A stretch of DNA of 64,000 nt from Flavobacteriaceae bacterium. Its GTDB lineage: Bacteria; Bacteroidota; Bacteroidia; Flavobacteriales; Flavobacteriaceae. The notes under the pieces are model-generated. The model was not told the DNA's origin. It saw nothing but the letters and a program-made list of their open reading frames with translations, and made no database searches. Position numbers and translations under genes: made by a program. Positions 51,324 to 55,909 of this stretch are shown here, piece by piece. The number at the start of each line of letters is the position of its first letter. Position 1 is the stretch's first letter. The stretch is taken from the NCBI GenBank assembly GCA_002721175.1, contig PBJR01000011.1:65016-129015 (forward strand), written 5' to 3'.

Positions 51324-53939
51324 TTACAATTTTTTCTTAACTGCAATCTCTTTAAAAGCTTCCAACACATCTCCTACAATCAAATCGTTGTAATCTCTTA
51401 TCTGAATTCCACAATCATAACCCTTTGCAACTTCCTTTGCATCATCTTTAAACCTTTTTAATGACGCTAAGTCGCACGTTTGGATTACAACACCATCACG
51501 AATAATACGTATTTTGGAATCTCTGTAAATTTTTCCGGTGGTAACCATACAACCTGCAATTGTTCCAATTCTTGAGATCTTGAATGTTTCTCTTACCTCA
51601 GCAGAACCACTTACTTCTTCTTTAAAATCAGGTGATAACATACCCTCCATTGCATCCTTTAGATCATTTATAGCATCGTATATTATAGAGTAGGTACGTA
51701 TGTCAATTTCTTCTTTTTCGGATATTTGGCGAGCATTTCCAGTTGGACGCACGTTAAACCCAATAATAATTGCATCAGAGGCAGAAGCTAAAAGAACATC
51801 ACTTTCAGTAATAGCACCAACTGCCTTGTGGATAATATTAACTTGAATTTCTTCTGTAGATAATTTTTGAAATGAATCCGTTAAGGCTTCAACAGAACCA
51901 TCTACATCCCCTTTAAGTATAATATTTAATTCTTTAAAATCACCAAGAGCTATTCTTCTGCCAATTTCATCAAGTGTAATATGCCTCTGGGTTCTGACAG
52001 TTTGCTCTCGTTGCAACTGAGTTCGTTTAGCTGCTATTTGTTTTGCTTCACGTTCATCGCTAAAAACGTTAAATTTATCCCCGGCTTGAGGTGCTCCATC
52101 AAGACCTAATATTGATATTGGTGTCGATGGTCCAGCGTTGTAGATATCCTGTCCTCTTTCATCATGCATAGCTTTGATCTTACCACTGTTTTTACCAGCT
52201 AAAACATAATCACCAACATTTAGTGTTCCGCCTTGAACAAGAACAGTGGAAACATATCCACGACCTTTATCTAAAAAGGCTTCAACTACAGTCCCTACAG
52301 CTGGTTTTACAGAATTTGCTTTCAATTCTAACAACTCAGCTTCCAATAAAACTTTTTCAAGAAGCTCTTGTACGCCATCACCAGTTTTTGCAGAAATATC
52401 ATGAGATTGTATTTTACCACCCCAATCCTCAACCATTAAGTTCATGTTTGCTAAACCTTCTTTGATTTTGTCTGGATTTGCAGTAGGCAGGTCAACTTTG
52501 TTGATTGCAAAAACAATGGGTACACCCGCTGCTTGTGCATGTGAAATAGCTTCTTTAGTTTGAGGCTTTATATCGTCGTCGGCAGCAATTACTATTATAG
52601 CAATGTCAGTGACCTGCGTACCCCTAGCCCTCATGGCAGTAAACGCCTCATGGCCTGGTGTATCCAAAAATGCAATTTTTTGACCGCTTGATAATGTTAC
52701 ACCATAAGCCCCTATGTGCTGAGTAATACCACCCGATTCGCCTGCAATAACATTTTCTTCTCTTATATAGTCTAGCAATGAAGTTTTCCCATGATCAACG
52801 TGACCCATAACAGTAACAATTGGTGCACGTGGACTTAAATCTTCTTCTTTATCTGTGGTTTCTTCAATGGATTCATCGATGTCAGCCGTTATAAAATCAA
52901 CAGAGTAACCAAATTCTTCCGCTACGATTGAAAGGGTTTCTGCATCCAACCTTTGATTCATTGTAACCATCATGCCAAGAGACATGCATGCCCCAATAAT
53001 TTCAGCTACTGTAACATTCATCATAGTAGCTACTTCATTTGCTGTTACAAACTCCGTTACCTTAAGAATTTTGCTTTCAACAGCTTGCTTTTCAAGTTCT
53101 TTCTCTGTTTGTTGCTTGTGTTGATCTCTTTTATCTCTTCTATACTTTGCTCCCTTCCCCTTAGAAGATTTACCTTGAAGTTTTTCTAGAGTTTCACGGA
53201 CCTGTTTTTGTACCTCTTCAGCAGATGGTTCAAGTTTCTGTGTGTTTTGCTTAAATTTATTTATGCCTCCTTTAGACTTTGGCTTTTGAACTGTAGTTTC
53301 ACCACCAGCTTTACTTATTCTTCTACGCTTTTTCTTTGAGACTTGATTATTATCTTCTTGTTTAGCTGTTTTTGGATCAACGGAATCTGTTTTATCAAAT
53401 TTTGATAAATCAATTGTTTTACCCGTTGATTTTGGACCGCTTAACTTTGCATAATTGGTATCAAGTTTTTCTAAAGCATCTTTATCAATTGGCTTATCCG
53501 TAGATTGTTTTATGTCTTTTTTAGCGTTAACGTTTTCATTCTTATCTGCGTCTGTTAAATCATCATTTGGTTTATTAGCTGGTGTTATATCTTTTTTCAA
53601 ATTGATTGACCCAATTTTTTTTGGACCTTCCAAAGAAATTTTAGTGTTAATAACTTTTTGGATATTCTCATCTCTCTGTTTTTCCTCAATCTCTTTCTCA
53701 CGTTTTAACCTTAGCTCTTCCTTCTCTTTTAGTTTTGCGGCACCAAGTTGATTAGAAGCTACCTTCTTGTTTGCATCAGTTTGAAATTCACCAAAAAGCA
53801 ATTCATAAACTTCTGAAGAAATTTTAGTAGTGGGTCGCTTTTCAACTTGAATACTCTTAGACTCTAAAAAATCAATAGCACGGTCAATTGAAATATTTAA
53901 TTCTCTTAAAACTTTACTCAATCTTACGTTATCCGCCAT
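51324..53939 (-). CDS. infB: Translation initiation factor IF-2
   Basis: [52 protein letters not shown]; Lys/Glu-rich N-terminus. Confidence 0.98.
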
Positions 53940-53974: not shown

Positions 53975-55207
53975 TTAATCTTCAAACTCCTCCTTCAAAA
54001 TTCTTATTACGTCTTCAATAGTCTCTTCTTCAAGGTCAGTACGTTTGGCAAGATCATCTAAATCTTGTTCTAAAACACTTTTAGCTGTGTCTAACCCAAC
54101 TTTGGAAAACTCTTCAATAATCCAAGCATCAATTTCATCTGAAAACTCGGATAATTCAACATCTTCCTCAACTCCTTCTCTAAAGACATCAATTTCATAT
54201 CCTGTCAAACGACCAGCGAGTCTAATATTATGACCTCCACGACCTATGGCTTTACTTACTTCCTCAGGCTTTAAAATTACCTCAACTCGTTTTGTGTCCT
54301 CGTCAATTTTGACTGAGGTTACCCTTGCAGGACTCAATGCCCTAGTAATGTATAATTGAAGATTGTTAGTATAATTAATTACGTCAATATTCTCGTTCCC
54401 AAGTTCGCGGACTATACCATGTATTCGAGATCCTTTCATTCCAACACAAGCACCTACCGGGTCAATTCTGTCATCATATGAATCAACAGCAACTTTTGCT
54501 TTTTCGCCAGGTATTCTAACAACATTCTTAATGGTAATTAAACCATCAAAAACTTCAGGAATCTCCTGCTCAAAAAGTTTTTCTAAAAATTCAGGAGCAG
54601 TTCTTGACAATATTATATTTGGCTTGCTTCCTTTCAATTCAACACTTTCGATAACACCCCTAACGCTTTCTCCTTTTCTGAAAAAATCCGATGGGATTTG
54701 TCTGTCCTTTGGCAAAATCAATTCATTCCCCTCGTCGTCTAAAAGAATGACGGCTCTGTGCCTAATATGATGAACCTCCGCAGAGTAAATTTCTCCTTCT
54801 AATTCTTTGAATTGCTTGTAAACATTAGTATTATCGTGCTCTTGAATCTTCGCAATTAAATTTTGCCTCAAAGATAAAATTGATCTTCTACCTAAATCAA
54901 ATAACTTAACTTCTTCAGAAACGTCTTCTCCGACCTCAAAATCGGGTTCGATCTTTCTTGCCTCTGTTAATGATATTTCTTGATTCTCGTTTTCTACCTC
55001 TCCGTCGGCAACAACTATTCTGTTTCGCCAAATTTCCAAGTCACCTTTATCTGGGTTGATAATGATATCAAAATTATCGTCATCGCCAAATTTCCTTTTT
55101 AATGCGTTCCTAAAAACATCTTCCAAAATCGACATTAGCGTTACGCGGTCTATGAGTTTATCATCCTTAAATTCTGAAAATGACTCAATAAGTGCTAAAT
55201 TTTCCAT
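53975..55207 (-). CDS. nusA: Transcription termination/antitermination protein NusA
   Basis: S1/KH domains: GKSV-like [65 protein letters not shown]. Confidence 0.98.
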
Positions 55208-55220
55208 AATTATAAATTTC

Positions 55221-55694
55221 TTAGAATACTAATTTTATTCGTGCGCTATCAATATCATTATAATTGATTTTCACACTTTTTTGTACTGTTACTTTACCTT
55301 TTCCAATTGGCTTAGGTTCCCTTGTCTTCCATTCTAAAAGAATATTTTGATCACTAACATCTTTTAAAACAGCTTCATACTTTTCGTTGTCACATGTAAC
55401 AAGGTTAAGGATTCTTCCTATATTTTTTACATATTGACGACGATGAACAAGTGGTGTATTAGCTCCAGCAGAAGAAACTTCTAAAGAGAAATCTTCGCTG
55501 TCTCTATCCAAATTATTTTCTAAAGACCTACTTAATTGAACACAATCGTCCACGGTTACACCATTATCTCCATCAATTGTAACATTTACTTTATTACCTA
55601 ACGATAATTCAAAATCAATCAAGAACAAGTCTTTTCGCTTTTTAAAATATTCCTTTAATATTTCTGTAATTTTATTTCTCAAAATATGATACAA
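55221..55694 (-). CDS. rimP: Ribosome maturation factor RimP
   Basis: FLIDFELSLGNKVNVTIDGDNGVTVDDCVQLSRSLE, SLEVSSAGANTPLVHRRQYVKNIGR; upstream of nusA. Apparent TTG start. Confidence 0.93.
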   Translation of the reverse strand: MYHILRNKITEILKEYFKKRKDLFLIDFELSLGNKVNVTIDGDNGVTVDDCVQLSRSLENNLDRDSEDFSLEVSSAGANTPLVHRRQYVKNIGRILNLVTCDNEKYEAVLKDVSDQNILLEWKTREPKPIGKGKVTVQKSVKINYNDIDSARIKLVF

Positions 55695-55718
55695 AAAGAG
55701 GGGACTCTCCGTCCCCTC
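55692..55718 (-). terminator. Terminator/attenuator-like hairpin abutting rimP start
   Basis: Minus strand GAGGGGACGGAGAGTCCCCTCTTTTTG: 8-bp GC-rich stem, 5-nt loop, T5 merging into the TTG start. Confidence 0.75.
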
Positions 55719-55744
55719 AAATAATTTTTATTAATTCTTCGTTG

Positions 55745-55776
55745 CAAATATAAGTTATAAAAGTTAATTTTTGCAA
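55745..55776 (-). promoter_or_regulatory. Bacteroidetes-type promoter for rimP-nusA-infB
   Basis: Minus strand TTG-N21-TATATTTG, matching the TTG / TAnnTTTG consensus described for Bacteroidetes. Confidence 0.55.
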
Positions 55777-55836
55777 CTTTAGTGAAGCTTTATTTGATCA
55801 AGCCAAAAAAAGCTCTAATCAAAATAAAAGCTCTTG

Positions 55837-55909
55837 TTGGCCCACTAGGGCTCGAACCTAGACTCTTCTGGACCAAAACCAGACGTGTTGCCAGTTACAC
55901 CATGGGCCA
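55837..55909 (-). tRNA. tRNA-Gln (anticodon TTG)
   Basis: Reverse complement TGGCCCATGGTGTAACTGGCAACACGTCTGGTTTTGGTCCAGAAGAGTCTAGGTTCGAGCCCTAGTGGGCCAA; 7-bp acceptor stem, anticodon loop TTTTGGT, GGTTCGAGCC T-arm. Confidence 0.95.

Follow-up and report, generated by a model that had tools for sequence, protein, structure and literature searches.

A near-constant terminator-like hairpin in the rimP-nusA-infB leader of Bacteroidota is probably a transcription attenuator

We describe a leader element of the rimP-nusA-infB operon whose sequence hardly changes over a large part of the phylum Bacteroidota. The element has the features of an intrinsic terminator placed close to a promoter, and we think it probable that it is a transcription attenuator of the operon, tuned by a protein, which is probably NusA. 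The operon supplies the maturation factor of the 30S subunit, one of the core factors of termination and the principal initiation factor; the near-letter conservation of a putative attenuator in its leader suggests that termination is the step at which its expression is set.

The element lies on the minus strand of the window, which is the whole 64-kb stretch of DNA that was analysed. A tRNA-Gln (TTG) gene at 55836-55909 is the upstream neighbour and lies outside the element. It is followed by the rimP promoter (55745-55776), composed of TTG at 55776-55774, a spacer of 21 nt and the -7 box TATATTTG at 55752-55745, and then by an unstructured A-rich leader of ~22 nt (55719-55740), whose length is near-constant and whose sequence is variable among relatives. 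The hairpin GAGGGGAC-GGAGA-GTCCCCTC occupies 55698-55718, with a perfect stem of 8 bp and a folding energy of -15.6 kcal/mol, and is directly followed by the U-run TTTTT (55693-55697) of the putative intrinsic terminator, where a released RNA is predicted to end. The original prediction had listed tRNA-Gln, TTG-N21-TATATTTG, hairpin and TTTTT in this order on the minus strand, and all of them were found at the coordinates given here. The operon continues with rimP, nusA (53975-55207) and infB, which encodes IF2 (51324-53939), the last two being named from their translations and from gene order. The leader as a whole folds with -21.7 kcal/mol, compared with a mean of -10.8 for shuffled sequences (z = -3.65), and 0 of 200 shuffles were equally stable. 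Both strands of the 64 kb were scanned for strict terminators (7 bp or more in the stem, 5 or more of them G-C, with an abutting T-run), and the hairpin in the rimP leader was the sole match; the same scan of 20 shuffled windows returned 1 match in total.

The rimP reading frame from its first TTG (55221-55694, minus strand) matches PF02576. That TTG (55694-55692), taken as the start codon in the original prediction, is in frame, open, and overlaps the end of the U-run. Nearly all relatives start rimP at an ATG further down, which in the genus lies 12-15 nt below the stem. Following the stem, TTTTTATACCAAATGTTTAGAGAT is typical of the genus, whereas the window has TTTTTGTATCATATTTTGAGAAAT, and the position of the genus ATG reads ATT (55685-55683) and is followed by TTG (55682-55680). 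The start of rimP is thus probably within 55680-55685, at 55685 or 55682, which is 9-12 nt below the TTG proposed earlier, and the latter is probably not used. A hairpin abutting the start codon, as initially described, is a picture that probably has to be revised, because the position of the relatives' ATG is lower and the hairpin would sit ~12-15 nt above the start. The rimP gene of the window seemingly does not have the ATG of its relatives, and a rare start codon may serve instead.

Hairpin and promoter are held at a near-fixed distance. Of the 121 family leaders, 119 carry the box TAnnTTTG in the 45 nt that precede the hairpin, compared with 34 of 717 control windows, and this recurrence upholds the promoter-like element of the original prediction. 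The gap between box and hairpin has a median of 26 nt in the 121 leaders and is 26 nt in the window; the RNA 5' of the hairpin is ~21-22 nt long and unstructured in the family. The distance from hairpin to rimP start is mostly 12-18 nt in relatives, but rises to 68-108 nt in four loci (L078, L085, L094 and L099), which indicates that it is the distance to the promoter, and not to the start codon, that is constant. The -7 box of the Bacteroidota promoter has been placed at -12 to -5 (PMC9723704). With this placement we infer that the RNA of the rimP operon would start near 55740, and an RNA ended at the U-run is predicted to be ~48 nt long.

We then compared the leaders of the family. Searches located RimP in 10 of the 11 genus genomes and in 142 of the 151 Flavobacteriaceae genomes, and 129 rimP loci were read, corresponding to 121 distinct leaders. 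A hairpin with a U-run was present above rimP in every one of these 121, the hairpin having been placed by eye in 18 divergent leaders. The exact stem pattern occurred as one copy per genome in 111 of the 151 genomes, and the listed places, where compared, coincided with rimP loci; a reversed control pattern matched 1 genome. An alignment of 120 leaders has pairing in 96.4% of its cells, slid controls pair at 74.4% at most, and 0 of 500 shuffles were as good on any of five pairing measures. Compensatory changes in which both sides are altered, which the original prediction had proposed to look for in related Flavobacteriia, were seen at 6 of the 8 stem pairs, in counts that are inflated by the relatedness of the sequences. 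The U-run is conserved as strongly as the stem. In one clade GTCCCCTC is replaced by GTCCTCTT and pairing is kept through G-U, and the length of the loop varies by several bases among relatives; both features indicate that the hairpin acts as RNA and not as a DNA palindrome. Eight loci (L070, L072, L074, L076, L078, L080, L085 and L094) keep the 5' arm GAGGGGAC together with the 3' arm GUCCUCUU, G-U pairs and a longer U-run. The near-identical rimP loci L010 and L011 occur on two contigs (C23 and C48) of one draft (G003), and are probably due to assembly redundancy.

The letters of the stem, and not only its pairing, seem to be constrained beyond what termination requires, save in a few lineages with other stems. 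This is suggested by 209 other terminator hairpins found in the same loci (0.87 Mb), in which no 8-mer arm was common to more than 6. The 5' arms of these terminators contain CCC in 47 cases and GGG in 19, a polarity opposite to that of the rimP hairpin. A regulon of sites carrying the same hairpin was considered and rejected, since the stem is present as a single copy per genome. A conserved leader peptide was also considered: of 103 leaders, 67 have a T directly before the stem, so that an ATG, GTG or TTG overlaps the stem in 64 of the 103, with no frame kept. Because neither frame nor end of such an upstream mini-ORF is kept, and 39 of the 103 leaders have no start overlapping the stem, the leader peptide was rejected.

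Conservation extends well beyond the family. We widened the sample by 40 further Bacteroidia genomes, which mostly represent different families of the class, and found a hairpin upstream of rimP in all 40, of which 38 were detected automatically beside a T-run and 2 (L174 and L195) by eye. Twelve of the 40 have the exact 8-bp stem and most others have a G-rich 5' arm, which is absent from L173 and L205; the hairpin lies far upstream of rimP in L171 and L198. Quite different stems, with hairpin and U-run kept, were found in L077, L083, L173 and L205. Among 84,980 species genomes scanned for the stem followed by TTTT, at least 118 stretches matched, and among the matches listed 114 of 118 are rimP leaders: 113 precede rimP on its own strand by 10-144 nt, one more (L256) is truncated at the edge of its stretch, and 4 places (L210, L212, L249 and L263) are unrelated to rimP. 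Hosts named among the matches listed include Flavobacterium johnsoniae, Capnocytophaga, Pedobacter, Mucilaginibacter, Hymenobacter, Fulvivirga and Saprospiraceae. A phylum-wide search with a model of the leader (R1) recovered 39 family genomes and only five weak matches outside the family, owing to strict filters and a narrow model, and direct reading of rimP leaders did better. One genome has a second, weak R1 match (E 0.003) away from rimP, at G052:C2:290010-290079. Seven loci (L248, L253, L261, L269, L271, L303 and L322) have AAAA above the hairpin and TTTT below it, flanks with which the site could terminate on both strands.

The conservation across the family leaders and the further Bacteroidia lends good support to the terminator-like leader hairpin with a promoter of its own, and to its reading as an attenuator, as put forward in the original prediction. 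In the mechanism that we propose, RNA polymerase would start near 55740, make ~22 nt of unstructured RNA, and then meet the hairpin, with its G-rich 5' arm and C-rich 3' arm, and the U-run. Some polymerases would stop, releasing the ~48-nt RNA, and the remainder would read through into rimP. We infer that termination occurs at the U-run and that NusA sets the fraction that stops. A classical antiterminator appears to be unavailable, since in 120 leaders the best competing fold reaches -4.9 kcal/mol, with a median of -0.25, compared with a hairpin median of -15.2. With no competing fold, a protein that acts on the polymerase or on the hairpin would probably determine the stopping fraction. The likeliest factor would be NusA, whose gene belongs to the operon and which stimulates intrinsic termination in other systems; it would exert negative feedback. 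In B. subtilis, NusA has been found to aid the majority of intrinsic terminators (PMC8060035). The stem letters are, however, more constant than a plain NusA-stimulated terminator would need, which hints at a further sequence-reading step, and with 8 bp and U5 the terminator could be strong enough for read-through to depend on an antiterminator.

The constancy of the stem may also indicate that the hairpin is above all a specific protein-binding site, with GAGGGGAC/GUCCCCUC read by RimP, IF2, the RNA-binding domains of NusA or another factor; the bound protein would switch termination or translation, the terminator being the output part only. An identical 8-bp stem in most family genomes and in several orders is consistent with this, as are the unshared arms and opposite G/C polarity of the other terminators in the same loci, and Naville and Gautheret made the same argument from their motif (PMC2965389). 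The four loci that keep hairpin and U-run with quite different stems argue against it. No protein is known to bind this hairpin, which also counts against a binding site as the main function, and we regard this explanation as unlikely. It overlaps with the attenuator explanation and the two are compatible. A tentative extension, in which we have limited confidence, is a phylum-wide attenuator in which the stem GAGGGGAC/GUCCCCUC would be a fixed recognition sequence, and NusA, RimP or IF2 would read the emerging hairpin and set termination. If true, it would be a sequence-specific, hairpin-reading feedback loop joining transcription and ribosome assembly.

Other functions of the hairpin fit the comparison less well. 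It may hide the ribosome landing site of rimP, the U-run being incidental, and a start 12-18 nt below the stem, as found in most genomes, is within a normal ribosome footprint. The four loci with 68-108 nt between hairpin and start make such occlusion, which the original prediction had offered as an alternative, unlikely as the conserved function, and the conservation of the U-run also counts against it; we consider a translational block improbable. Seen as DNA, the hairpin is a perfect palindrome (8-bp arms, about +23 to +43) and could be an operator that binds a dimeric regulator just below the promoter. The spacing of the arms, however, differs by several bases among relatives, and one entire clade pairs only through G-U, which breaks a DNA palindrome, and on these grounds we reject this explanation as very improbable; the U-run on one side only and a single-copy motif with no regulon also stand against it. 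Finally, the hairpin could simply end the transcript of tRNA-Gln, whose gene is the close upstream neighbour in the window. Of the 121 leaders, however, only 23 are preceded by a tRNA within 400 nt, always tRNA-Gln, and 98 have none within this distance. The upstream tRNA, which the original prediction counted in the layout, is not part of the element. The tRNA usually carries a terminator of its own, and in most loci of the same genus this terminator lies above the rimP promoter (e.g. AAAGCTTTAAC-TTCG-GTTAAAGCTTT-TTT). A terminator of the tRNA transcript should follow the tRNA gene with no promoter between, and here the promoter sits between tRNA-Gln and hairpin. This last explanation, also raised in the original prediction, is scarcely credible, and we take it as refuted. 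The upstream tRNA-Gln occurs in scattered genera (L001-L011, L013, L015, L017, L022, L028, L046, L079, L081, L084, L098, L116 and L123) and may be the ancestral arrangement; in E. coli, an initiator tRNA-Met gene is found at the same place upstream of rimP.

A probable counterpart had been noticed within the family. A structured element 5' of rimP was reported in 2021 in F. psychrophilum and in other Flavobacteriaceae genera, with no match in Rfam (PMC9723704), and is very probably the same element; the main text of that report gives no sequence, terminator reading or mechanism for it. A search of our region against Rfam returned no family other than tRNA, the weak matches being taken as chance. 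The Gammaproteobacteria rimP leader, RF01770, belongs to the same operon and place, but is a longer leader with two hairpins and differs from the single hairpin described here. Its covariance model (cut-off 47 bits) had no match at the element, while the E. coli control scored 102 bits; in relatives it gave sub-threshold matches only, and those listed lie elsewhere. The E. coli hairpin nearest to rimP reads GGGC-UUUAG-GCCC-UUUUUUU. In Bacillus subtilis, a leader terminator of the same operon, ylxS-nusA, is reportedly NusA-dependent, with a model of NusA feedback (Mondal and colleagues, 2016). That leader is ~180 nt long (PMC2965389), compared with ~48 nt here.

The closest likeness is to the rimP-leader of Naville and Gautheret, described in 2010 as the most ubiquitous attenuator and found in Firmicutes, Gammaproteobacteria and other species (PMC2965389); Bacteroidetes do not appear in the main text of that study. 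It consists of a conserved stem with G-rich and C-rich arms and a U-stretch, with no antiterminator, 4-130 nt above rimP, and NusA was considered the best candidate regulator because the operon is reportedly under NusA repression in E. coli (PMC2965389). The element described here shares the location in the 5' leader of rimP-nusA-infB, a predicted hairpin with a U-stretch on the gene strand, the GGG/CCC polarity with conserved letters, and the lack of an antiterminator or larger conserved structure. Its distance to the gene agrees as well, being mostly 12-18 nt and up to 144 among the matches listed, and the motif is likewise absent from other terminators, with one copy per genome and 4 of 118 unrelated places among the matches listed. 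The published core is GGGc(...)gCCC, whereas the fixed 8-bp stem here is GAGGGGAC/GUCCCCUC, with GGGGAC...GUCCCC as the common form; the exact GGGc...gCCC core was found only in some Bacteroidia (L082, L095, L170 and L183), and GGGGC...GCCCC likewise occurs in some Bacteroidia. The element thus looks like the Bacteroidota rimP-leader, with a fixed stem longer than the published core motif, and probably works like the rimP-leader attenuator. It offers a compact test case for how rimP-leaders are sensed, being ~48 nt long, single-copy and free of an antiterminator, and the comparison provides an alignment and model for an element whose coverage in Rfam is limited to Gammaproteobacteria.
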